Assembly (NCBI RefSeq): GCF_024346315.1
Contig: NZ_JAGQCS010000004.1
Span: forward strand, 62,001 to 126,000
Source: Cyanobium sp. ATX 6F1
Lineage (GTDB): Bacteria > Cyanobacteriota > Cyanobacteriia > PCC-6307 > Cyanobiaceae
Length of the DNA: 64,000 bases
Reading direction: 5' to 3'
In this document: one piece after another, positions 10,983 to 23,046 of the stretch
How positions within the stretch are numbered: position 1 is the first letter of the stretch
Layout of the letters: every line of letters begins with the position of its first letter
The notes under the pieces: generated by a model
What the model saw: the letters and a program-made list of their open reading frames with translations, nothing else
Database searches by the model: none
Told to the model about the DNA's origin: nothing
Translations under genes and position numbers: made by a program

Positions 10983-13328
10983 TCATCGGGCGGTGGCTTC
11001 ATAAAGATATCTCTGGAAGCCTGAAAAGAGCTGACCGATGTCTTCGGGCCTGCCCAGATCGGCCACGGCATCGGCAATGGAGTTCTGGTAGCGAAGGCAG
11101 AGCAACGGCGTGAGTTTCTCTTGAGCGAGCTCCTGCACGCCCATCGTCACGTAGTGCTGGAGCACGAAATCCAGGAAGAGCTGTTGCTTGCTGGTGAATC
11201 TGGAATGGATGTACAGACGGGCCTGCTGGGCGCGCGCCTCGCGGGGGATGGGCTGCAGGGCATAGGCCACATGGGCCAGCACATCAAACAGATCGCTGTT
11301 GCCTGCATCAATAATCGACTGCATCTCGGCCAGCTGCGCTGCACCGAAACCCTTCTCCGCGAGGCCTTGGAGCAACTTGCTGCGGGTGTCTGGTGCACTC
11401 CAGAGCGCTCGCAGCTCGGCTTCATCCTTCACGAACTCCGGCAACTGGCCATAGAGCAGTTCCAGGAACTGCTGAGAACTCATCGGCCTGCCATCGGGGT
11501 GCCAGAAGCTGGTCACCGTCATGTGCTGGATGGAGCGTTCCTTGCCGTCACCCAACTTGATCCGGGCTCTGGTGCGGCTGGGCTGGCCGCTGGTGTCATC
11601 CTCGTCGCCTGGATCCTTGGGGTCAGGGGGATCGATGCGCTGCTCCGGTGCCCGAGGCACAACCTCTTCCGGCTCCGTGGGTTCACCGTCCCACTCCGGA
11701 TCACTGAAGTGATGGTGCGCCTTCACGAAGTCGTAGATCGTGAAGTACTCCTTGCCGTCAAACAGGCGGGTGCCACGGCCGATGATCTGCTTGAACTCGA
11801 TCATCGAGTTCACCGGCCGCAGCAGCACGATGTTGCGCACATTGCGGGCGTCCACGCCGGTGGAGAGCTTCTGGGAGGTGGTGAGGATGGTGGGGATGGT
11901 CTTCTCGTTGTCCTGGAAGGCGCGAAGGGCCTGGTTGCCCAGTTCGCCGTCGTTCGCCGTCACGCGCTGGCAGTAGTTGGGATCGGGGCTGGCCTTGAGC
12001 TGGTTGATCAGATCACGGATCGCCAGGGCGTGGTCCTGGGTGGCGCAGAACACCAGGGTTTTCTGGCGCTGATCGATCTGAGCCATGAAGATCTCGACCC
12101 GCTGCTGCTCGCGCTGTTTGATCTCGATGATCCTGTTGAAGTCGGCTTCCTTGTAGAGCTTGCCGGCTTCGATCTCCCCTTCCACCACCGTGTCATCGGG
12201 GGTGTAGACGTACTCATCGAGGGTGGTGGTGACCTGCTTGACCCGAAAGGGGGTGAGGAAGCCGTCGTTGATGCCCTCCTTGAGGGAATAGGTGAACACC
12301 GGTTCGCCGAAGTAGGCGTAGGTGTCGGTGTTGTCCTTGCGGCGCGGGGTGGCGGTGAGCCCGAGTTGCACGGCGGGGGCGAAGTATTCGAGGATGCCGC
12401 GCCAGGTGGATTCGTTGTTGGCGCCGCCGCGGTGGCATTCATCGATCACGATGAAGTCGAAGAAATCCGGCGGGTACTGGCCGAACCAGGGGGAGCGCTT
12501 GCCGTCGCGCAGCGGCCCGCTCATGAAGGTCTGGAAGATGGTGAGGAACACGCTGGCGTTGGTGGGCACCCGGCCTTTCTTGCGCAGGGCATCCGGCTCC
12601 AGGCGGGCCAGGGCGCCCTCTTCGAAGTCGGCGAAGGCGGTGAAGTCGTTGAAGGCCTGATCGGCGAGGTTGTTGCGATCGGCCAGAAACAGGAGGCGGG
12701 GCCGGCGGCTGGGTTGGCCCGAGAGGTTCCAGCGGGCCGCAAACAGCTTCCAGATGATCTGAAACGCGATCGAAGTTTTGCCGGTGCCGGTGGCCAGCGT
12801 CAGCAGGATGCGGCTGCTGCCGGAGGCGATGGCCTCAAGCACGCGGGTCACGGCGATGTCCTGATAGAAGCGGATCTGCCAGCTGCCGCCCTTGTCTGGG
12901 TAAGGGATGGCGGCGAAGCGATCACGCCAGGCGTTCTCTTCGGCAAAGGTGCGGTCCCATAGCTCCTGGGGGCTGTGGAAAGCGTCGAGCTCCGCCTCCT
13001 CGCCCGTGGCCCGATCGATGGCGTAGACGCCCTTGCCATTGCTGGCGTAGGTGAAGCGGATCTGCAGTTTGGTGGCGTAATCCTTGGCCTGGCCCACCCC
13101 CTCGCTGAGTGGCAGGCTGTCGGCCTTGGCCTCCACCACCGCCAGCTGGGTGTTGCGGTAGGTGAGCACGTAGTCGGCGATCAGTGGCTTACCGCGGCGG
13201 CCGCCGCCCTCGATCCGGCCCGGGGTGATCGAGTATTCGCGGCGGATGCGGCTGCCCTCCACCACGCCCCAGCCGGCCGCCGTGAGCAGCGGATCAATCA
13301 GCTCGGCGCGGGTTTCGGCCTCGTTCAT
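10983..13328 (-). CDS. hsdR: Type I restriction endonuclease subunit R
   Basis: HsdR is the ATP-dependent translocating and cleaving subunit of type I restriction enzymes and needs HsdM2S to act. The 781-residue protein has an N-terminal nuclease region (about 1-90) with the R.DEAD-type IADYVL...AVVEAKA signature, which supplies the D...ExK catalytic residues. Two helicase domains follow: Walker A in LATGTGKTS (~180) and the DECH box in VIDECHRGG (~297), then motif VI in IIGRGTR (~513). The tail after ~590 is the HsdR C-terminal domain. No frameshift or internal stop is seen. Its start overlaps the HEPN gene stop by 4 bases, so it is translated together with the toxin-antitoxin pair rather than with hsdM/hsdS, which lie 3 kb upstream. 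Confidence 0.95.
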   Translation of the reverse strand: MNEAETRAELIDPLLTAAGWGVVEGSRIRREYSITPGRIEGGGRRGKPLIADYVLTYRNTQLAVVEAKADSLPLSEGVGQAKDYATKLQIRFTYASNGKGVYAIDRATGEEAELDAFHSPQELWDRTFAEENAWRDRFAAIPYPDKGGSWQIRFYQDIAVTRVLEAIASGSSRILLTLATGTGKTSIAFQIIWKLFAARWNLSGQPSRRPRLLFLADRNNLADQAFNDFTAFADFEEGALARLEPDALRKKGRVPTNASVFLTIFQTFMSGPLRDGKRSPWFGQYPPDFFDFIVIDECHRGGANNESTWRGILEYFAPAVQLGLTATPRRKDNTDTYAYFGEPVFTYSLKEGINDGFLTPFRVKQVTTTLDEYVYTPDDTVVEGEIEAGKLYKEADFNRIIEIKQREQQRVEIFMAQIDQRQKTLVFCATQDHALAIRDLINQLKASPDPNYCQRVTANDGELGNQALRAFQDNEKTIPTILTTSQKLSTGVDARNVRNIVLLRPVNSMIEFKQIIGRGTRLFDGKEYFTIYDFVKAHHHFSDPEWDGEPTEPEEVVPRAPEQRIDPPDPKDPGDEDDTSGQPSRTRARIKLGDGKERSIQHMTVTSFWHPDGRPMSSQQFLELLYGQLPEFVKDEAELRALWSAPDTRSKLLQGLAEKGFGAAQLAEMQSIIDAGNSDLFDVLAHVAYALQPIPREARAQQARLYIHSRFTSKQQLFLDFVLQHYVTMGVQELAQEKLTPLLCLRYQNSIADAVADLGRPEDIGQLFSGFQRYLYEATAR

Positions 13329-13708
13329 GCGATCAGGGCATCCACGTGGGCGAGCAGCTCAGCACATCGTTGGTTCCAGGCGACGCGATCGAGGTTTTCC
13401 AACTCCGGTTCTTCGTCGTAGCGGCGCAGGACGGCAAAGAGAGTGAACCGGCTGAGAGCCATGAAGGGCTCGATCGCAACACCTTGATCCCGCAGCATCT
13501 GGAACAGCAGCCGGAGATTGTGCGTGAAGGGTGGTTGTTCTGGAGCCAGAACCAACAGCCAGGCTTTGAGGGATTTTTCTGTGGCCTGTTGGAGATAGAA
13601 CCCCCAGGTGTCCTCCTCGAAGACGGAGGAGTCCGCCATGGCCATGGCGGCACGCAGATCGCGGTGGGCGATGCGCAGAAAAGCGGCCGACGTCTCAGCT
13701 GGCGCCAT
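13325..13708 (-). CDS. HEPN-domain protein (toxin partner of MNT pair)
   Basis: The 127-residue protein from ATG 13708 is a HEPN-domain protein: an all-helical fold with EDTWGFYLQQATEKSLKAWLL (in part) as the first conserved helix pair. Stand-alone HEPN proteins next to a MNT nucleotidyltransferase form the HEPN/MNT toxin-antitoxin systems, in which HEPN is an RNase and MNT modifies it. The typical RNase motif R-x4-6-H is not obvious here, and the protein may be a non-catalytic HEPN. It overlaps the MNT gene upstream by 14 bases and hsdR downstream by 4 bases. Confidence 0.8.
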   Translation of the reverse strand: MAPAETSAAFLRIAHRDLRAAMAMADSSVFEEDTWGFYLQQATEKSLKAWLLVLAPEQPPFTHNLRLLFQMLRDQGVAIEPFMALSRFTLFAVLRRYDEEPELENLDRVAWNQRCAELLAHVDALIA

Positions 13709-14078
13709 GCGGAGACTCCTCTGGGTCCAGCCGCCGTCCGTAGCGGAAGGCCTCGGCAATCACATTCTGACGACCATGACGCCGCTCCTCCACCTCACTG
13801 GCGGAGTAGAGCAACAGCTCGATCGGCAGGCGGTGATGGGCCAGCTTCCAGCCCAGGGCATCCGTCTCTTCGAAGCGCGAGTGCGTGGCCAGCCAGTCGT
13901 CAGGCACCGTCACCAGCAGGTCGATGTCGGAGTCGGGCCGTTCGGTGCCACGGGCGCGGGAGCCGAACAGGCGCACCTCGGCGCCGGGGATCGCCGCCTG
14001 GATCTCGGCCGCGATGGTGCCCAGCAGCGGCTCATCCACCACGTAGTGATAGCTGGAGGGGCGGGCCGAGGCGGTCAT
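13695..14078 (-). CDS. MNT-type nucleotidyltransferase (antitoxin of HEPN pair)
   Basis: The 127-residue protein is a minimal nucleotidyltransferase. It contains the signature LFGSRARGTERPDSDIDLLV (residues ~37-56): GSxARG plus the D-x-D metal-binding pair. In characterised MNT/HEPN systems, the antitoxin transfers AMP onto the HEPN toxin. Here it precedes and overlaps the HEPN gene, the usual antitoxin-first order. The start at ATG 14078 gives a normal family length. Confidence 0.85.
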   Translation of the reverse strand: MTASARPSSYHYVVDEPLLGTIAAEIQAAIPGAEVRLFGSRARGTERPDSDIDLLVTVPDDWLATHSRFEETDALGWKLAHHRLPIELLLYSASEVEERRHGRQNVIAEAFRYGRRLDPEESPHGAS

Positions 14079-14167
14079 GGGGAGAAGTCTGAACCAGAAC
14101 TGGGCATGGTGGTGGTTGTCAGCGTTGCCGGCCCATGGTTGTCAGCTGGACCCTTGCCAGATGCGAA

Positions 14168-14368
14168 TCACCGCAAGGCATCGAAGGCATGGGCCTCCAG
14201 CACGGAGTCTTCGGGCTCGGCGTGGAGCACACCGGATCCGCGCAAGGCCGCCCAGGGAGAGGGGTTAGTGGCGGCACCCATGGAGGGTGGCGTCTGGCAT
14301 GCCACTGATTTGCCGCACCGGATAAACTCCAGATAGTGGGCGAGGAGCTTGGTCACGGAAATGTCCAT
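14168..14368 (-). pseudogene. Phd/YefM-like antitoxin with an apparent internal deletion, no toxin
   Basis: The 66-residue frame starts like a Phd-family antitoxin (MDISVTKLLAHYLEFIR) and ends like one (PWAALRGSGVLHAEPEDSVLEAHAF). The middle strand that normally reads like RRGRVVARL is missing, so it is about 15-20 residues short. No PIN, Doc or Fic toxin follows; the next genes are the MNT/HEPN pair. I infer a solitary antitoxin that lost its toxin and part of its DNA-binding domain. It could still be translated as a short protein. Confidence 0.5.
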
Positions 14369-14412
14369 CCCGACAACGAAAGAGGCATTTTGATCGAGGC
14401 CCTGCTTTCTGC

Positions 14413-14748
14413 TCAGGGCCGATCCCCACGCCGGTAGAACACCACCCCCGCTCGCTGGATGTGATCGATCAGCTCGGGGGACTGGAGCGCGGCCAGGAGC
14501 GAGAGGTCGAAGCGCCAGGGCAGCAGCAGATCGTCGAGGGCGACATCGAGGCGGGCAAGGGTGCGGTGATCGAGGTCGACGCCGGAGAGGGTGAGGTCGA
14601 TGTCGGAGCCGGGACGGTGGCGCCCGAGGGCCCTTGAGCCATAGAGGGTGGCCTGCTCGATGGCCGGAAAGGCGGCGAGGGTGGCCTGGATCCTGGCCAC
14701 GGCGGCGATGGGCAATCCGTAGCGGGTGGCGGAAGCCTGGGAGGTCAT
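14413..14748 (-). CDS. MNT-type nucleotidyltransferase
   Basis: The 111-residue protein carries the motif LYGSRALGRHRPGSDIDLTL (about residues 35-54), the GS-x10-D-x-D core of minimal nucleotidyltransferases of the HI0073 type. Its start overlaps the end of the HI0074-like gene by 4 bases, the normal arrangement of HI0073/HI0074 pairs. It is only distantly similar to the other MNT in this island and was probably acquired separately. The target is unknown but is likely the HI0074-like partner. Confidence 0.85.
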   Translation of the reverse strand: MTSQASATRYGLPIAAVARIQATLAAFPAIEQATLYGSRALGRHRPGSDIDLTLSGVDLDHRTLARLDVALDDLLLPWRFDLSLLAALQSPELIDHIQRAGVVFYRRGDRP

Positions 14749-15050
14749 GGCCGGGCCTCCTCTGCCTGGAGGAGTGATTTCAGCACCGTCGCTTCGTCGT
14801 AGGTGTGGGCGCTGAGGTTGCGATGGCGGATCATCTCCATCCAGATCTCGCCATCGTTGATCAACCCCTGGGCAAAGGCTTCACGGGTGGTGTCGCGGGA
14901 ACCGAAGAGGTCGGACACACCGCGGGAGACCAGGAAATCCTTGAGGGTTTTCCAGCTGAGTTCATGGGTGAACTCGAAGGCCTTGATCAACCCCTGCCGT
15001 TCCAGGTCACTGAGGCTGCGCTGCTGGGAGAGCTCCACCGCTTCCCTCAA
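14745..15050 (-). CDS. HI0074-family nucleotidyltransferase partner (HEPN-like), start codon uncertain
   Basis: The 101 residues from the TTG at 15050 are a HI0074-type helical protein with FEFTHELSWKTLKDFLVSRG, the RDTTREAF turn and MIRHRNLSAHTYDE, including the RN..H motif near the end. The usual N-terminus (DIRWQQRFGNFRQALARL) is coded in the same frame from 15101 to 15051, but no ATG, GTG or TTG is present there before the stop upstream. A GTG at 15106 is in another frame. A small deletion near 15100 may have removed the true start. It pairs with the MNT gene downstream (4-base overlap). Confidence 0.7.
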   Translation of the reverse strand: MREAVELSQQRSLSDLERQGLIKAFEFTHELSWKTLKDFLVSRGVSDLFGSRDTTREAFAQGLINDGEIWMEMIRHRNLSAHTYDEATVLKSLLQAEEARP

Positions 15051-15847
15051 ACGCGCCAGTGCCTGGCGGAAGTTGCCGAAGCGTTGCTGCCAGCGGATGT
15101 CGACACCTGTCCTGGGTTCAAGGTAGGGAATGGCGCCCGTTCATGCCCCCTCGGCACCACGATCAACCCCGTCTGCGGCTCCCCGTAGCCAACGCACGCG
15201 CCACCCATCGCGAGCTGCTGGGCGGCGACGGCACAGAGGGCCGCATCGATCCAGTCGATGTTGGTGAGCTCGCGGCAATCGAGGCCGAGCCGTTGCAGCA
15301 GAGCCCAGCGCTCCTGGACTTTGCGGCGCGCCTGGGGAGGGGGAAGTCCGAGGGCCCGGTGCAGGTGCCAGGTGATGGCGTGGGGAAAGGTTTCGAAGCA
15401 GCAGCGCTGTTCTCCTGCTGGCAGGGCGCCTGCGGGCAGCTCGGCTGTGGGCAAAGCGGTGAGCAGGGGATGGCTGGGCTCCAGGGCTTGGTAGAGCGCT
15501 TCGCCGCGCAGCATCCAGCCGAAGTAGTCCGTTGGGTGCTCGATGGCCCGCTGGCGGCTGGGGCTGGAGAAGCATGGGATCCGCTCGGCCATCAACGCGC
15601 GTTCGGCGAGGCGGCTGCGGCCATCCGCGCTCCAGCGGCAGGGGGCATCAATGGCGATCACGCTGGCGCGCACCACCGAGCGGCACCAATGGGCCAGGGC
15701 CGCTGCATCGCTGCTGGTGAAGCGGGAGTGATAGGCACCACCGCAGAGGGCCACGGCATGGAAGCCCTTGCGGGCGCCGCCCACATCAATGCCGACGGTG
15801 GCGTCAACCAAGACGCTGACGCGTCCAGAGAGCATCCCTTCGGGCAT
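15047..15847 (-). CDS. DUF429-domain protein with a read-through tail
   Basis: The 266-residue frame holds a DUF429 domain, an RNase H-like fold of unknown function. Visible features are VGIDVGGARKGFHAVAL near residue 18, IAIDAPCRW near 64, and the later FETFPHAITWHL and DWIDAALCAVAA. The domain ends at about VVPRG (residue 235). The last ~30 residues, rich in Ser/Ala, are the HI0074 N-terminal coding region read in another frame, so the original stop was probably lost. The start at ATG 15847 overlaps the remnant ParE toxin gene by 44 bases. Confidence 0.7.
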   Translation of the reverse strand: MPEGMLSGRVSVLVDATVGIDVGGARKGFHAVALCGGAYHSRFTSSDAAALAHWCRSVVRASVIAIDAPCRWSADGRSRLAERALMAERIPCFSSPSRQRAIEHPTDYFGWMLRGEALYQALEPSHPLLTALPTAELPAGALPAGEQRCCFETFPHAITWHLHRALGLPPPQARRKVQERWALLQRLGLDCRELTNIDWIDAALCAVAAQQLAMGGACVGYGEPQTGLIVVPRGHERAPFPTLNPGQVSTSAGSNASATSARHWRV

Positions 15848-16092
15848 CGAGAACGGCGACCACAGTCAAGTCGTCGACGTCAAACGTGTAGTAGATGCAA
15901 AAAGGAAATCGCTTCGACAGCGCTCGATAAACCATGGGCAAGCCCGTGAATCCCTCCGTAGTAGGCCAGAGATTCGCTATCGGCCAGCAAACAGCTACGG
16001 AAATAGCCCCCAAGACCCGGAGCCTGCTGCTCGTCAAACCAGAATCCCTCCTCCAGATCTTTCAGAGCATCTGAAGAGATGTTGATGATCAT
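15804..16092 (-). pseudogene. ParE/RelE-type toxin, frameshifted
   Basis: Two overlapping frames make one toxin. The first starts at ATG 16092 and gives ISSDALKDLEEGFWFDEQQ through AYYGGIHG. The second, ending at 15804, gives YRALSKRFPFCIYYTF, VVAVLDARRD and WTRQRLG. The switch falls near 15935-15950. The full length, 289 bases, is one base over a multiple of three, so two lost bases or one gained base would restore a ~96-residue protein, the usual toxin size. It overlaps its antitoxin by 4 bases. As read it codes for an inactive toxin, unless the shift is a sequencing error. Confidence 0.75.
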
Positions 16093-16340
16093 CCACCGAG
16101 TTGCTGAAGCTGGGCCTTGGCCTCAGCCCATGGGATCCGCGTAGCCCTGCCATCGGTCAGTCTCTCGCTGCGTTCCCGCAGCACCTCAGCGTGCCATTCA
16201 GGTGAGGAGACATCCGCCGGGTGGCTGCAGAGGCTTTGCCAGACCTGCTCAAGAAGACGAACCTTTTCCTGCACAGTGAGCGCATCAAGCACGTCGCCGG
16301 AAAGATCAATCGACATGCGCTCCCCCTGTGTTGTGGCCAT
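16089..16340 (-). CDS. Addiction-module antitoxin (TIGR02574-like)
   Basis: The 83-residue protein has the addiction-module component pattern: a short N-terminal part, then LTVQEKVRLLEQVWQSL and a C-terminal SPEWHAEVLRERSERL followed by WAEAKAQLQQL. Such proteins neutralise ParE/RelE toxins, and the toxin gene follows with a 4-base overlap. An internal ATG at codon 9 is an alternative start. With the toxin broken, the antitoxin may be a relic, though it appears intact. Confidence 0.8.
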   Translation of the reverse strand: MATTQGERMSIDLSGDVLDALTVQEKVRLLEQVWQSLCSHPADVSSPEWHAEVLRERSERLTDGRATRIPWAEAKAQLQQLGG

Positions 16341-16466
16341 TCTAGAACCGGTTGGCTGGATTCACCGTGACACCTCCGCCCCGCTATCACTGCGCTTCTG
16401 AAGTGGTTGGGCAGTCAGGGCATCAGTGACGGCGGCGAAGGAGAAGCTGAGGCCGCTCGCCATGGC
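16341..16466. other. Short spacer between hsdS and the addiction module
   Basis: A 126-base gap between the hsdS stop and the antitoxin start. I see no gene or clear terminator in it. The downstream toxin-antitoxin genes probably have their own promoter here. Confidence 0.4.
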
Positions 16467-17039
16467 TCAGAGCTCGCCGCTGAAGGCCTGGTGCAGCAGG
16501 GATTTTTTCAGGGCCTCCAGCGCGGCGAGTTTGCGTTCGTAGATTTGGGTGAGGCGTTGGGTTTCGGTGGCGAGGGCGTCGAGCAGGCTGACGATCCGCT
16601 GCTGTTCGGCCAGCGAAGGAAGCGCGATTGACAACCCAAGGACTTGCTCACGGGAGATGCCGGGGATTGCGGCACCCGTGGAGAGCGCCTGGAAGTCGTC
16701 AAATTTCGAACTTAAAAATGCGTAGACAAAGCTCGGCACAGCTCTGGTTACTCGAACGGCCATCAACTGACGACTAATCGCAACTTCGTCTTCGTCGAGC
16801 AGATTGACTTTGCCGACGCCCGAGCCCTTGACTGTTATGAGGACATCGCCTCGATTCGCAAGTATCTTTGGATACTCCGTCCACTTTGTGATTACCGGAT
16901 TAAGTGGCCCAAAGTCGGAGGGTCCAGTGAGATAACCGATGCCCCGAGACTCCGTATTGTAGTCCTTCGCGTCAATGTGCTGTCCAGAAATGAGTTGACA
17001 AACGTCACCAAGTGTTTTCGTTTCCCACCCCTTCTTCAT
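16467..17039 (-). CDS. hsdS: Type I specificity subunit, half length (one target domain)
   Basis: HsdS recognises the DNA target for the type I methylase and nuclease. Ordinary HsdS has ~400 residues with two target-recognition domains. This one has 190 residues: one target domain (1-~145) with the usual start WETKTLGDVCQLISG, followed by one conserved coiled-coil (about 145-190) starting at SLAEQQRIVSLLDAL. Half-length HsdS proteins are known and can dimerise to recognise a palindromic site, so it may be intact. Its start overlaps the hsdM stop by 4 bases. Its codon and base use look less GC-rich than in hsdM, in the target domain especially. Confidence 0.85.
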   Translation of the reverse strand: MKKGWETKTLGDVCQLISGQHIDAKDYNTESRGIGYLTGPSDFGPLNPVITKWTEYPKILANRGDVLITVKGSGVGKVNLLDEDEVAISRQLMAVRVTRAVPSFVYAFLSSKFDDFQALSTGAAIPGISREQVLGLSIALPSLAEQQRIVSLLDALATETQRLTQIYERKLAALEALKKSLLHQAFSGEL

Positions 17040-18809
17040 AACAGCGCCCTGATGTTCCCCAGCACTTCCGCACTCTCAGCATCCAGCGCCGCAATCTCCT
17101 CCATGATCTCTTGCGGACTGCGGTGCGCGATGGCCTCGCCGCCGTTGGGGTTCTTCACCGACAGATCAAAGGTGTACGGGTCGATGGCCGCCACGTCCAC
17201 GCTCCAGCTCTTGGGCGAGTCGGCTTTGGTCTTCTGCAGGTCGATGAACTCGGCGAGGTCGGCGTCGTTGAGCGGGTTGGTCTTGCCCAGGTTGCGGCCG
17301 GGGTCGAGCTGGTAGAACCACACCTTGCGGGTGGGCGAGCCTTTTTCGAAGAACAGCACCACGGTCTTTACGCCCGCCCCTTGAAAGGTGCCGCCGGGGC
17401 AGTCGAGCACGGTGTGGAGGTTGCACTCCTCGAGCAGCTTCTGGCGCAGGGCCACCGACGCGTTGTCGGTGTTGGAGAGGAAGGTGTTCTTGATCACGAT
17501 GCCGGCGCGGCCGCCCGCCTTGAGCACGCGGATGAAGTGCTGGAGGAAGAGGAAGGCGGTTTCGCCGGTGCGGACCGGGAAGTTCTGCTGCACTTCCTTG
17601 CGCTCCTTGCCGCCGAAGGGCGGATTGGCAACGATCACATCGAAGCGGTCTTTCTCCTCCACATCGGCGAGGTTCTCGGCGAGGGTGTTGGTGTGGAGGA
17701 TGTTCGGCGCCTCGATGCCGTGCAGGATCATGTTCATGATCGCGATCACATAGGCGAGGCTCTTCTTTTCCTTGCCGGTGAAGGTGCGGCTCTGAAGGGT
17801 TTCCAGATCAGCGGTGGACAGCTCCCCGCGGCGGCGCATGAAATCAAAGGCCTCGCAGAGAAAACCAGCTGAGCCCACCGCTGGATCGCAGACCGTTTCC
17901 CCGATCGTTGGATGGACCACCTGGATCACGGCGCGGATCAGCGGCCTTGGGGTGTAGTACTCGCCGCCGTTGCGGCCGGCATTGCCCATCCGCTTGATCT
18001 TTTCCTCATAGAGCATCGAGAGCTCATGCTTCTCGGCCTGGGAGCGGAAGCGCAGGCCATCGATCACATCGATGATCTCGCGCAGGTTGTAGCCGCTGCT
18101 GATCTTGTTGCGCAGTTCGCCGAAGATCTCGCCGATCTTGTATTCGATCGTGTTCGGCCCGCTGGCGCTCTGCTTGAAGCGCTCCAGGTAGGGGAACAGG
18201 CGCTGGTTCACGAAGTCGCGCAGGTCGTCGCCCGTGAGGGCGGCGTGGTGGTCGAGCTGGCCGCTGGCGTTCTTCGGTGCCGCCCAGCTGTTCCAGCGGT
18301 AGGGCTCATCGAGGATCGGCGTGGTGCTGCGGCCCTCCAGGGCGGCCACGGTGGCTTTGTCGTCTTCGAGTCCGTCGAGGTACTTGAGGAACAGCAGCCA
18401 GGAGGTCTGCTCGGTAATCGAGCTCGGTGCCGCAGCCGGCCTCCTTGCGCAGGCAGTCGTCGATGGCGCGGAACGCCTGCTCAAACGAGCTGGGGGCAGC
18501 GGCGCGGGCACCGTTCGGGGCGCGGTTGGAGGGGGCAGAGCTGAATTCCTGGCCATGGCCGGGGGCTTCTTCCGCCGAACCATCCGCCAGTGCCACCGAA
18601 CCGCCTCGGCCACGGCCGGGCACGATCAGCCGGCGGCTCAGCAGGTCGCCCTTCACCGCTTCGTAGCTGGCTTCGTCCCACTCCAGCATTTCCCGCAGGC
18701 GGCCGTTACCCGCTGATCCACCCAGGGCTTCGAGGGCGCCGAGGAACTCGTCGTGGAGGTCATCCTGGGTGTTTGCAGGGGTCAGAGCGTGATCAGGCGC
18801 GGTGGTCAA
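17036..18809 (-). pseudogene. hsdM: Type I DNA methylase subunit M, disrupted by a 2-base frameshift
   Basis: The N-terminal part starts at ATG 18809. It contains a winged-helix-like extension (about residues 15-75), then SFEQAFRAIDDCLRKEAGCG. The frame then fails: after GCGTELDY the conserved TEQTSWLLFLKYLDGLE continues in another frame. The DNA at 18412-18417 reads TTACCG on the coding strand where TTACACCG would keep the frame, so one AC was lost. The remainder is a normal HsdM with the SAM motif DPAVGSAGFL and the catalytic NPPF in IVANPPFGGKE. Adding two bases gives a 591-residue protein. As read, methylation and restriction by this system should be off, unless the sequence is wrong here. 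Confidence 0.85.
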
Positions 18810-18987
18810 GGGGAGAAGGAGGGCTGAAGGCTAAGGATGGCAGGGTCAGAGAGTTGGGGGGAAGGTTGGGGGGAGTTTGTGGATGAGGGATAAAGCTGGT
18901 ATGGCATGGACGGGTTTATTTGCATTTAACTCTTGTCATCATCAGGCCGAATATTAAAATGCAGGAGAAGGATCTTGCTGGAGGTAG

Positions 18988-19119
18988 CTAGTGCAAGGTG
19001 ATGCTGGTTGATCCTTGACGGGACGCAACTATTGGAGTAAATTCTATACTTAAATTGAAAATATTGTCCAATGCGATCTGCTTCTGTTGCCCGTCTTCCG
19101 AGCAGGTAATCTGCAGCAT
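18988..19119 (-). CDS. Possible small protein of 43 residues
   Basis: An ATG at 19119 lies four bases after the stop of the 85-residue gene and opens a 43-residue frame (MLQITCSEDGQQKQIALDN...). The composition is not that of a shadow frame in GC-rich DNA, and the spacing suggests an operon. A longer version from 19179 would overlap the previous gene by 56 bases. No family is recognised. Confidence 0.3.
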   Translation of the reverse strand: MLQITCSEDGQQKQIALDNIFNLSIEFTPIVASRQGSTSITLH

Positions 19120-19123
19120 CTGA

Positions 19124-19381
19124 TCAGTCCGAGAAGATCTGCTGAAAGTCAACCTCTGAGATAGTAGTACGCAAATCACGCTTTAGTTCTTCGTACAAGT
19201 CTTTGTCTTGTCGCGCGACAGATCTAGCCATCGCTTTGGCAAGCTCAATCTCCTTTTGTGCAATATGAATTGTTATTTTGTTAATGATCATCTTAGGTAC
19301 TCCGTGACGGCGCGAGAAAATGTCTTTTGAAACCACGGTACCTAGGATCTGGGCTACGACAACTGGATTTATTCCCCACAT
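19124..19381 (-). CDS. Small protein of unknown function, AbiTii/TerB cassette
   Basis: An 85-residue protein with an N-terminal part of ~30 residues and a charged helical C-terminal half (about 42-75), rich in Lys, Glu and Arg. An in-frame ATG at 19291 would give a 55-residue form. It starts 8 bases after the stop of the upstream small gene, so the two are co-transcribed. The base composition is lower in GC than the flanks. I recognise no domain. Confidence 0.6.
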   Translation of the reverse strand: MWGINPVVVAQILGTVVSKDIFSRRHGVPKMIINKITIHIAQKEIELAKAMARSVARQDKDLYEELKRDLRTTISEVDFQQIFSD

Positions 19382-19389
19382 GATTCGGC

Positions 19390-19737
19390 TCAGCGATTCA
19401 TGAAGTCAGAAAAAGTATTAGACTGGCGAGAGCGATCTGCAAAAAGATCGAAGAGGCTGCGAATCATCTCCCTAAACATGACCTTTGTCTCTTCGTCGGC
19501 AGATTCGTTTTTCGACAGCTCTGTGAGGGAGGCTACCAGGATGCTGAAGTTTTGGCTATTGATCTGAAGTTCAGTACACCGAGCCTGAAGAGCTGCCCGG
19601 AATGCCTCTTCTTTTGACCTCAAGGCATAGACATCTCTGAATCCATCTATTATTACGGGCAGATTATCAATAAGCCCCTTTGCAAGCACTCCACCTGTAT
19701 TCATAGCTGAAACATGGGGAATTGATGAGTCACTCAT
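19390..19737 (-). CDS. Helical protein of unknown function, AbiTii/TerB cassette
   Basis: A 115-residue, mostly helical protein from ATG 19737 (an in-frame start at 19749 adds four residues). Residues ~20-60 are amphipathic, followed by SFDLFADRSR-like polar helix near the end (actual stretch SLFDLFADRSRQ). No catalytic motif is visible. It follows the TerB-like gene by 39 bases and precedes the 85-residue gene by 8 bases, so it belongs to the same transcript. It has no close look-alike I can name. Confidence 0.65.
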   Translation of the reverse strand: MSDSSIPHVSAMNTGGVLAKGLIDNLPVIIDGFRDVYALRSKEEAFRAALQARCTELQINSQNFSILVASLTELSKNESADEETKVMFREMIRSLFDLFADRSRQSNTFSDFMNR

Positions 19738-19776
19738 GATGATATCCAAAGAGGAAGGATGAAGAATGGCAATATG

Positions 19777-20466
19777 TTAGTTATCTTTGGCTATGAGGTC
19801 AACAAGTACCTTTACACCCCAGATTGAGCCTGCGGCAATAACAGGTACCACCAAGACAGTGCCAGCAAGCATGCCTCCTCCGACGAGAGCGCCTAATGCC
19901 GCCAGGCCAGAGGTAATGCCCGCAGCGCTAAGGCCGAAGACAGAGCCAGATGCAGCGACGGCTGCAACAGGAACGCCGACACCAGCGAGGCTTGCGGCAC
20001 ATTCCTTGATCAGATTGTTAAAGGAGTCTGAATCACTTGGGGTATTGCGAATCTGCCAAAGATTAAATTGAACCTGCTTAATCGCCTGAATCTGATCATC
20101 TTTAAGCTCCAGGTGACGTCCAAGACGGATGACATGCTCCTGCTCTTCAACTGAGATGTAGCCATTGGCAAGAGACATTAAGAATAGATCTGAAATCAAT
20201 GTGAAACGGAGATCCGAGCTGCCAAGAGCCTTAATCCCAGCGAGGATTGCTTCGCGATGCGAATCCTTTAAATCGTAAACAGCAGCATAAACCCTTGCTT
20301 TGCCTTGGTCAGAAATGTCAAGCTTGGAAAGCTCAGTATCTAGGTGTTTACGCTCTTGTTCGTCAAAGATGCGATCTATAAAGCATAGTTCGGCAAGAAG
20401 TGACAGATAAGCAATCCTTGCCTCTTCGGGGTGGGCGAGAAGGGGGTGCTTCGGTGCCTCAGTCAT
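19777..20466 (-). CDS. TerB-like protein with a hydrophobic C-terminal tail
   Basis: The 229-residue protein has a TerB-like helical domain (about residues 15-135), with the typical repeat of LLAELCFIDRIFDEQE and LFLMSLANGYISVEEQEH, where acidic residues can bind metal. The last ~75 residues form a Gly/Ala/Val-rich hydrophobic region (about 155-222) able to span a membrane two or three times. TerB domains occur in stress and anti-phage systems, often as membrane-linked sensors. The gene has its own possible promoter upstream (20543-20571) and leads two or three small genes. Confidence 0.75.
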   Translation of the reverse strand: MTEAPKHPLLAHPEEARIAYLSLLAELCFIDRIFDEQERKHLDTELSKLDISDQGKARVYAAVYDLKDSHREAILAGIKALGSSDLRFTLISDLFLMSLANGYISVEEQEHVIRLGRHLELKDDQIQAIKQVQFNLWQIRNTPSDSDSFNNLIKECAASLAGVGVPVAAVAASGSVFGLSAAGITSGLAALGALVGGGMLAGTVLVVPVIAAGSIWGVKVLVDLIAKDN

Positions 20467-20653
20467 TATGCTAATCCAAGCAATGCAACAAGCTTACATC
20501 GGAAGGCGTGTGTCGTCAGCGTTTTTGATGCGTTATGCAGTTATTGTATATTTTATGCCTCGGATGGCTAACGCTAAGATCAGAAGCTGGCATATCTCTC
20601 TGCACTTATAATGTACCACGCACCCGTCTTCTGAATCTTGATGTTAGAGGGGT
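20467..20653. other. AT-rich spacer between AbiTii and TerB genes
   Basis: A 187-base spacer with clearly lower GC than the rest of the window. It holds the candidate promoter listed at 20543-20571. No gene is seen. Confidence 0.5.
20543..20571 (-). promoter_or_regulatory. Candidate sigma70-type promoter for the TerB operon
   Basis: On the minus strand, TTAGCC is followed after 17 bases by TACAAT, a good -10 element. The -35 match is weak (three of six). It lies about 77 bases upstream of the TerB-like start in an AT-rich spacer. Prediction only. Confidence 0.35.
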
Positions 20654-21562
20654 CTACTCAGGCAGTCCATAGTATTTAGCAATGAGTTTAGGTAGCACCG
20701 TCGTCGCCGTGGCTGTCGCGACTGTCCAAGTGCCAGCCATAGCCTTTGCGATCATGCCTCCGACCCAGCCCGCGACGCGAGCGCCTAGCTTCTCCCCTTT
20801 GGGCTGGCCATCTTCTGCAATTGCCTCCCTTAAGTCGCCTGAATCATTAGGGCTAACGCCAAGCCTTGAAAGCTCGCGAATAAGACACTCTAAGTCCCCG
20901 GGAGCTACGCCTGCTGACTGAGTGACTTGTGTGCTTGCTTGTGCGATATTACCAATGTTTCCATACACCACCGTATGAAAGACCTGAGATAATGCGGCAC
21001 TTGAGTTCGGCAGGTCGATTCCATCAAGCTCAATCACTGATTCGGCCTCAAGTGCGAAAGTAAGAATCCGATTCCGAACCGACTCGATCGCTCCGATAAT
21101 CGTGCTCTTGGAAATGCTCAGCCATGCTTGGGCAAGTGCCATGTTTTCGTAGAAGTCCCTCTGAACCATGGCGATGAGATCTCCTGGCCATGCACAGAGA
21201 AGATGATCATCTTTGCGACGAGCGATTTCTTCGAGAGTTGCAATCGGATGACGGAATTTCGCCTCGCGCGCCCAGTGTCTTAATTCATCTGGAAGATTGC
21301 TTGCAGGGAGTACACTGTTCCGAATAGCGCTACCGAATGGCCCCATGAAGTCACCCATCGCAAGCCCGGAAAGAACACGATAGTTAGGCAGTTCGGCATC
21401 TTCGGGATATCCATTGAGCTCGTTTTGAACCCACATGCCTAGGTCGGGTATCTTTTGGCGCGCCGCGAGGACTTGACAACGTCGAAGTAATTCGCCAACA
21501 GGCATGTCTGCAGATACTGCGCCATCTTGAATTGTCCGTAGCAAATCAGCGTTGGTAGTCAT
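20654..21562 (-). CDS. AbiTii-domain protein (candidate abortive-infection protein)
   Basis: The N-terminal ~100 residues match the AbiTii pattern: LLRRCQVLAARQKIPDLGMW followed by VQNELNGYPEDAELPNYRVL, with the NELNGY and LPxYRV signatures. AbiTii was named from abortive-infection genes, and its action is not known. The middle (about 130-240) is helical. The C-terminal ~50 residues are Gly/Ala/Thr-rich and hydrophobic (VAGWVGGMIAKAMAGTW and on), and may insert in a membrane. The ATG at 21562 fits the domain. It is the first gene of a minus-strand, lower-GC cassette with a TerB-like protein and small proteins downstream, next to a type I restriction locus. Confidence 0.75.
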   Translation of the reverse strand: MTTNADLLRTIQDGAVSADMPVGELLRRCQVLAARQKIPDLGMWVQNELNGYPEDAELPNYRVLSGLAMGDFMGPFGSAIRNSVLPASNLPDELRHWAREAKFRHPIATLEEIARRKDDHLLCAWPGDLIAMVQRDFYENMALAQAWLSISKSTIIGAIESVRNRILTFALEAESVIELDGIDLPNSSAALSQVFHTVVYGNIGNIAQASTQVTQSAGVAPGDLECLIRELSRLGVSPNDSGDLREAIAEDGQPKGEKLGARVAGWVGGMIAKAMAGTWTVATATATTVLPKLIAKYYGLPE

Positions 21563-22074
21563 ATTGGCTTTATTCGCAGGCTAGCTAGATCTTCGCCGTT
21601 TCCCAGAACAACGCTAGCCACTGAGCGTTTGCCCGTCCAACTCGCAGGAAGCCTTAGGCCCACTTAGCGCGAACGTCTGCGCCCCGATGGATCTGCGCCT
21701 GCTTGGTTCCAAACGAACCACTGTTTCGCGAACCCGCTGAGCCCTTTTCGCGACACTACAAAACGGCGATCGGGAGGTCGATGCACGGAGGCTCATCGAC
21801 AAACCCCTGGGCCCGGGCCTGCAGTGGTGCTGGGTGTCCTTGAGCTGACCTGACGTCGTGGGCACCCCAGCTCCAACGTCCCTCCCCATCGACACGCCAG
21901 ACCGCAGACATTGCGTCACTGGGGGATGGGCCAGGCCCAGCCGTTCGGCATCGGCCGCCCCTGCCGGTCTTTCCAACCGCCCAGCGCGCTACAAAGATGG
22001 AGCGTCCCCCGCCGTTGCCCCATGGCCGTGTGGATTCAGGTTCCCTCGGCGGCCCGGCGCACGGCTGAGGCGCC
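21563..22074. other. About 500 bases without a gene between the defence island and cbpA
   Basis: Divergent spacer carrying the promoters of the AbiTii gene and of cbpA by position. I found no tRNA that could have served as an integration site. A short palindrome TGGGCC-A-GGCCCA is at 21927-21939; its role is unknown. GC rises from left to right, so the island edge probably lies within this stretch. Confidence 0.5.
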
Positions 22075-23046
22075 ATGAACTACGTCGACTACTACGCCGC
22101 CCTGGAGGTGGAGCGGGGCGCATCGGCCGAGGAGATCCGCAAGGCCTACCGGCGCCTGGCGCGGTGCTACCACCCGGATGTCTCCAAGGAGCCCGACGCC
22201 GAGGAGCGCTTCAAGGCGATCAGCGAGGCCAACGAGACCCTCTCTGATCCCCAGAAGCGCGAGGCCTACGACCAGCTCGGCCGCCACCGCCCGGGCGAGA
22301 ACGTGCAGCCCAGCGCCGAATGGGACAGCCGCTTCTGGCAGGGTGCCCCCGGCGAGGACATCGACCTGGCCGAACTGCTCGAGCGCATCGGCTTCCATGG
22401 GAGCGTCCCGCGCGGGGCGGGCGGCCCCCAGCGACCGGGGGGTGGCGGGCGGGCCCCCCGCCGCGGCCAGGATTTCGAGATCGCCACCAGCCTCAGCCTC
22501 GAGGACGCCGCCACGGGCACCGAGGTGAGCGTGGAGTTCAGCGTCGCCGAGCTGGGGGACGACGGCCGGGTGCAGCGCCGCCCCCACACCGCCCGGGTGC
22601 GCGTGCCCAAGGGGGTCAGCGATGGCGAGCGCCTGCGCGTGCCGGGCAAGGGTGGCCCGGGGCTGGGGGGCGGCAAGCCGGGGGATCTCTACATCGACAT
22701 CCGCCTGGAGCGCCATCCCCGCTTCGAAGTGGCTGGCCACGATCTTTATTTGCAGGTGCCGATCGCCCCCTGGGAGGCGGTGCTCGGCGCCGAGATCGAG
22801 CTGCCCACCCTTGATGGGCGCCTGAAGCTGACCGTGAAGCCCGGCGCCCGCGGCGGCCAGAAGCTGCGCCTGGCCGGCAAGGGTCTGCCCCGGCGCGGCG
22901 AGGGGGCGGGTGATCTCTTCGCCGTGCTCCAGATCGTCACCCCCAGCGTGATCAGCGACAAGGAGAAGCAGCTGTTCGAAGAGCTCGCCGCCAGCTCCAG
23001 CTTCGATCCCCGTGCCCACCTCACCGGAGAACCCAGCCATGTCTGA
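22075..23046 (+). CDS. cbpA: DnaJ-class co-chaperone CbpA
   Basis: The 323-residue protein has a J domain (residues 4-67) with the HPD motif in CYHPDVSKE, which stimulates DnaK ATPase. A Gly-rich linker (about 108-137) follows, then two beta-rich C-terminal substrate-binding domains (about 138-310). There is no cysteine-rich zinc domain, so it is the CbpA (type II) class and not canonical DnaJ. The next gene, a CbpM-like modulator, overlaps its end by 8 bases, which matches the cbpA-cbpM operon of other bacteria. Confidence 0.9.

Follow-up and report, generated by a model that had tools for sequence, protein, structure and literature searches.

A candidate accessory defence cassette of a TerB-tail protein and two small proteins beside restriction loci of Cyanobium and its relatives

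Which of the low-GC (guanine plus cytosine) genes beside a type I restriction locus of Cyanobium sp. ATX 6F1 belong together, and what might they do? The genes lie in the window, the 64,000-nucleotide stretch of this genome (G000) that was analysed. Between dnaJ and the type I restriction locus, the window holds minus-strand open reading frames (ORFs) for an AbiTii-domain protein, a protein with a TerB domain and a hydrophobic tail (TerB-tail protein), a 115-residue protein and an 85-residue protein. A first-pass annotation had taken these four, and perhaps a 43-residue ORF, for one undescribed defence system. All four genes are present, but the 43-residue ORF lacks conservation. Three genes (TerB-tail, 115 and 85) make up the conserved unit, hereafter the cassette. 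At about an even chance, it is an accessory defence cassette that moves between restriction-type loci and consists of a BnzA-type membrane effector and two new small partners. The word "undescribed" stands: no account of the cassette was found in the libraries searched, nor a description of it in the accessible parts of the literature searched.

Conservation of the cassette and its separation from AbiTii

The distribution of the genes was investigated in 400 genomes of the window's family, which also holds Cyanobium usitatum Tous (G125). The profile of the 115-residue protein matched six genomes, five of them strongly. The sixth match (G150, expectation value (E) 0.002, one stop) was dropped because a renewed search of the locus gave no match. 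The TerB-tail profile matched 12 genomes, five at full length; the seven partial or weak ones, five of which belong to one genus and have internal stops, were not counted. The five genomes with full-length TerB-tail proteins were the same as those with strong 115 matches: the window genome, G083, G089, Tous and Microcystis elabens FACHB-917 (G291). The gene order was TerB, 115, 85 in all five, with gaps of 30–43 and then 5–8 bases. The 85 gene followed the 115 gene at 8 bases, but at 5 bases in the two loci that carry Hma genes.

Selection was investigated with six pairs from four genomes, leaving out FACHB-917. The proportion of synonymous differences (pS) was 0.68–0.88 in all three genes, which is near saturation, and that of nonsynonymous differences (pN) was 0.12–0.28 for TerB and 115 and 0.18–0.42 for 85. 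The three cassette genes are under purifying selection, and the low pN relative to pS indicates that the small ORFs for 115 and 85 are real genes. The pairwise distances of the three proteins correlated at r 0.98–0.99 over ten genome pairs, which is a modest test, given that the five include a near-identical pair in this comparison. Of the row first grouped together, TerB-tail, 115 and 85 form a conserved, co-inherited set; AbiTii does not belong to it. Homologues of the small proteins were always accompanied by TerB (5/5), yet by AbiTii in the window genome only.

The cassette genes have a GC content of 0.44–0.50 and the AbiTii gene 0.52, against 0.67 for the window, which confirms the GC-poor block noted earlier. 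GC content was measured around the cassette in four loci, and in each the cassette lay below its surroundings.

Across the phylum, the 115-residue protein was found in three of 386 genomes, all of the window's family. The TerB-tail profile matched 14 of 292 genomes, and besides the window only G532 spanned most of the profile. A scan of genome contigs found two loci, missed those of G083 and G089, and is not a full census. No plasmid record matched any of the three proteins. Three contigs of the viral collection (L023, L024 and L072) carry the cassette or its end, and HmaC is visible only in L023. Further downstream in L023, collagen-like and phage-tail-like genes were seen by eye, as in L017.

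The two small proteins had been said to match nothing known, and Pfam indeed gave no family over its cut-off for either. They show no similarity to each other, and kinship between them was rejected. The AlphaFold2 (AF2) model of the 115-residue protein is a helical bundle with a predicted local distance difference test score (pLDDT) of 71; a structure search with it gave unrelated helical proteins with a best Z of 5.5. A sequence search of solved structures gave nothing informative. Weak PADLOC matches were obtained for the 115-residue protein to HEC-01B (E 0.002, one of five members), DitA (0.0087, three), Csx21 (0.0066, one) and PDC-M15A (0.035, one). The 85-residue protein matched PDC-M61A (8.3e-6, two of five members, both near-identical Hma versions), ZorA (0.024, two), AbiEi (0.0019, one), PbeC (0.0039, one) and ApeA (0.0068, one). 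These matches were not read as kinship: the better ones are absent from the proteins of the window itself and from most other members, and the matched parts are short helical stretches. The 85-residue protein may nevertheless be related to PDC-M61A.

The intergenic gaps in the window are 187, 39, 8 and 4 bases from AbiTii onward. The row of three small genes read there at first, with gaps of 4–39 bases, is accurate for 115 and 85. The 43-residue ORF had no family match in the library scans, and no counterpart downstream of the 85 gene was seen by eye in the four other cassette loci. It was rejected as a gene, being not conserved.

The AbiTii gene of the window is a clear member of its family (PF18864, 125.5 bits against a cut-off of 27.6), as assigned from the start, but none of the other four genomes has AbiTii linked to the cassette. 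It was not found in G083, Tous or FACHB-917, and in G089 it lies at 3.26 Mb of the contig that carries the cassette at 0.24 Mb. In G139 and G089, AbiTii stands amid other genes. Relatives occurred in 36 plasmid records and none in the viral collection. According to PMC3710099, the AbiTii domain is an alpha+beta domain; the original protein, from Lactococcus, has no HEPN domain, and in other proteins the two are fused. This pattern fits an independent abortive-infection gene.

That AbiTii, TerB and the small proteins make up a single system is very improbable. Common strand and low GC content would agree with it, as would the joint absence of a block, 11269–21968, at the corresponding position in the sister genome G051. 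However, AbiTii is adjacent in one of five genomes and absent from three of the other four; elsewhere it occurs without TerB nearby, and the 187-base gap has a promoter-like site of its own. The missing block comprises most of the restriction-modification (R-M) locus, the cassette and AbiTii, which argues for island turnover and not for partnership. The locus is part of a restriction/defence island. Turnover at this site affects the island as a whole, and this accounts for the presence of both AbiTii and the cassette. AbiTii was rejected as a cassette partner on co-occurrence and is carried in this island independently.

The TerB-tail protein and its relation to Bunzi

The TerB assignment was also confirmed: residues 18–131 matched PF05099 with 32.8 bits (cut-off 24.4, E 9.2e-8). 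The hydrophobic tail extends over about residues 158–226, and its best 19-residue hydropathy mean is 2.19. Gly/Ala-rich hydrophobic ends had been claimed for both large proteins; this applies to the TerB tail, but the C-terminus of AbiTii is Gly/Ala-rich and not membrane-like (the best 19-residue mean anywhere in AbiTii is 1.21). Five TerB-tail proteins were measured, those of four cassette genomes and of G532; in each, the strongest hydrophobic stretches and a repeated GxxxG spacing were in the tail. The AF2 model showed a helical TerB domain and a helical tail at low confidence (pLDDT <50 from residue 195). Foldseek with this model gave no match under E 0.001; the hit to the uncharacterised PG1108 (2h5n) was weak, with a probability of 0.80 but an E of 1.9. 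One weak TerB match, of 27% identity, was found in the phage collection.

The tail segment recurs in other cyanobacteria, often twice in tandem, in LRAT-domain and short stand-alone proteins (L027, L028 and L032; L029–L031, L035 and L036; LRAT was scanned in L028 and read by eye in the others). In the sequence search of solved structures, the tail weakly matched c subunits of ATP synthase (E 0.6), no more than a lead.

Up to E 1, PADLOC matched the TerB-tail protein to BnzA and PDC-S48 only. The BnzA match (E 1.9e-27) covers profile positions 159–376 of 544, that is, TerB and tail only; roughly the first 158 and the last 168 positions of the BnzA profile have no counterpart in the TerB-tail protein. 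A true Bunzi pair was found in G532, a genome of another family in the same class, with BnzA (7.3e-43) followed directly by BnzB (1.4e-82). This pair lies at L049 10230–12696. Its BnzA is 34% identical to the window TerB-tail protein over 213 aligned positions, and neither 115 nor 85 is present there. The search that found the G532 BnzB found none in the five cassette genomes or in G279. The partner in Bunzi is BnzB, whereas the cassette has two small unrelated proteins instead. The 115- and 85-residue proteins were rejected as a split or divergent BnzB: compared by hhalign with one BnzB sequence, that of G532, they gave probabilities of 0.3% and 0.5%. We think that the cassette may work like Bunzi but, judging by the sequences, is not Bunzi, because BnzB is absent.

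In G279, an AAA protein taken for McrB and an McrC (McrBC 1.3e-18) precede a 290-residue BnzA-core protein (2.2e-23). This form is a more distant BnzA-core protein behind McrBC-type genes. The locus (L078 5285–10585) also holds a DUF4145-like protein of 131 residues, whose score is slightly below the cut-off of Pfam. The 115-residue protein has no similarity to the small neighbour found in G279, and kinship was rejected.

Other defence systems also have TerB proteins. According to a table in PMC10952713, TerB proteins occur in Shango and Bunzi without a stated function. A TerB-like protein in a defence locus is common to Shango and the cassette (PMC10250203); Shango has an ATPase and a helicase, neither of which is within the cassette, and no Shango model matched the TerB-tail protein. 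Dionysus (van den Berg et al. 2025) is, according to the review PMC12926258, a defence system with a TerB homologue, and is likened to the cassette by description only. The TerB/BnzA-type effector proposed here is of a known kind; its partners and contexts are new.

The cassette could instead be a Ter-type gene set for envelope or metal stress, carried in islands by happenstance. This is quite improbable: the TerB domain and the tail-like segments of LRAT and stand-alone cyanobacterial proteins would fit, but every one of the five loci belongs to a restriction-type island, the nearest relative with a name acts in defence, and no other Ter family was found among the part of the neighbours scanned with Pfam.

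An addiction module, with the TerB-tail protein as membrane toxin and 115 and/or 85 as antitoxin, would be kept for island stability and not for phage sensing. The small, tight, mobile operon, the hydrophobic tail and an addiction-module gene in the same island are consistent with it. It is nevertheless unlikely, as the nearest named relative of the putative toxin is the defence protein BnzA, and 115 and 85, with no Pfam match over cut-off, have no antitoxin-like domain. The toxin gene would also come first and be larger than is usual in such modules.

Restriction contexts and proposed working of the cassette

The cassette was found in three contexts, all of restriction/modification type: type I R-M in the window, SNF2/type IIG/GmrSD-type genes in G083 and G089, and Hma in Tous and FACHB-917. 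The type I neighbour named in the first-pass annotation was identified by hsdR, hsdS and hsdM. The order in G089 is SNF2, a type IIG-like methyltransferase, a GmrSD-type gene and the cassette. G083 has the same order, with the SNF2 gene matched by eye only and a DruE-like helicase further on. In both, the cassette is flanked by the GmrSD-type gene and by two genes that resemble, by eye, an Xre/RES pair. In G089, the type IIG-like methyltransferase falls into two ORFs that overlap (L016 4171–9122), and in G083 it is a single 1639-residue piece. In a search for a cassette-free locus of the G083 type, five of 47 family genomes matched the GmrSD-type protein, with G083 itself as the only close match; the one read of 18 plasmid records has no cassette.

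In PMC8565338, Hma is named as a candidate system that combines a helicase, a methyltransferase and an ATPase. In Tous, where HmaA, HmaB and HmaC were scanned, these three are followed by a 104-residue gene and then the cassette. The same layout was recognised in FACHB-917 by ORF reading and by 90% identical 104- and 187-residue genes; there, the DUF1156-type methylase is present as two separate ORFs (L022 35–1921). Sixty-three plasmid records carry an HmaC relative, and the cassette was absent behind HmaC in all four of those read (L090–L093). The next gene there was NACHT (opposite strand), a 531-residue protein, a UvrD helicase or TIR. Because the gene after HmaC differs in all four, the place takes exchangeable genes. 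In the Thermus locus, one of these four, no methylase is annotated between helicase and HmaC.

N6_Mtase matched three times in the window genome (2.96 Mb) and 18 times in FACHB-917. By rough arithmetic, the chance of the cassette lying this close to N6_Mtase in the window genome is of the order of a percent.

The cassette might instead help the restriction enzymes, for example by tethering or gating at the membrane near entering DNA, without killing. The TerB start codon overlaps the 3' end of the preceding 104-residue gene in the Hma loci, and the two may be co-translated. Such a role has a low probability: three unrelated enzyme sets are accompanied, and a dedicated interface with all of them is unlikely. 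The cassette of the window is not inside a tight operon: 314 bases separate its end from the hsdM reading frame downstream.

An accessory defence cassette could work as follows. The TerB-tail protein would be a membrane effector built like the BnzA core, with TerB as a cytosolic sensor or switch domain. Its Gly-rich hydrophobic hairpin would insert in or permeabilise the inner membrane. The helical 115- and 85-residue proteins would keep it silent, in place of BnzB, until a phage cue makes them release it. Membrane integrity would then be lost, leading to growth arrest or death of the infected cell once the neighbouring restriction has failed. The cassette would thus be an exchangeable back-up beside restriction systems. 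We infer the defence function, the membrane insertion, the control by the small proteins and the abortive outcome alike.

Several points weigh against this proposal. Defence genes cluster, and restriction neighbours do not prove cooperation. The defence role and the binding of 115 and 85 to the TerB protein are predictions, and the poor AF2 model of the tail gives membrane insertion no structural backing. The family is narrow, with five of 400 genomes of one family. HmaB and the 187-residue gene of the Hma locus are about as GC-poor as the cassette.

A wider proposal is put forward tentatively: the cassette would be a plug-in effector, a common fail-safe in unrelated restriction loci, within a broader TerB-tail set. 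The exchangeable partners in that set would be BnzB, 115 with 85, or McrBC-type genes with the DUF4145-like protein. If the TerB-tail core is an exchangeable effector of restriction loci generally, the importance would be wider. The compact three-gene version beside three restriction types is a small test case for the role of TerB plus tail, and for whether exchangeable last-resort effectors are a feature of restriction loci. With 115 and 85, two protein families are added that lie outside Pfam and, weak matches aside, outside the defence library.

Features of the type I locus and the island

The coordinates of the features are listed in Table 1.

Table 1. Positions of cassette genes and neighbouring features in the window.
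Feature	Position	Strand	Remarks
Type I hsdR	10986-13328	-	PADLOC REase_I, 1.6e-133
Addiction-module gene	16089-16340		Same island
hsdS, 190 residues, single target-recognition domain (half)	16467-17039	-	Methylase_S, 2.1e-16
hsdM	17036-18613, with start in ORF 18306-18809	-	N6_Mtase, 2.9e-60
43-residue ORF, within ORF 18988-19179	18988-19119	-	Probably not a gene
85-residue protein, N-terminus MWGIN	19124-19381	-	Without Pfam family; last cassette gene
115-residue helical protein	19390-19737	-	Without Pfam family
TerB domain with Gly/Ala-rich hydrophobic tail, 229 residues	19777-20466	-	BnzA-like core
Promoter-like site in AbiTii-TerB gap	20543-20570	-	Consensus match only, 9/12 positions
AbiTii-domain protein, 302 residues	20654-21562	-	PF18864, 3.9e-36; neighbour, outside the conserved cassette
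dnaJ	22075-23046		Name by eye

Residues 192–300 of the AbiTii protein (20657–20986) matched phrog_16090, a family of 123 positions and unknown function (E 1.5e-5). C-terminal matches of AbiTii in several Cyanobiaceae-like genomes were judged to be chance; the five read were, by eye, CbiD-like proteins of about 400 residues. Six promoter-like sites were seen on both strands of 18600–22100, against 2.2 expected, and Rfam gave no matches within 16000–23000.

The interval between hsdR and hsdS holds two nucleotidyltransferase genes, a substrate-binding partner and the addiction-module gene (13695–15050 and 15880–16340). The hsdM frame is broken near 18,420, with the first residues in one ORF and the remainder in the other. 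Either a sequencing error or true decay could account for the break. In the 32 kb of the sister genome G051 used for comparison, dnaJ is 97% identical. Next to dnaJ, G051 retains 326 bases that include the 3' end of hsdR, and a 94-base piece of the hsdM start matches elsewhere in the compared stretch.

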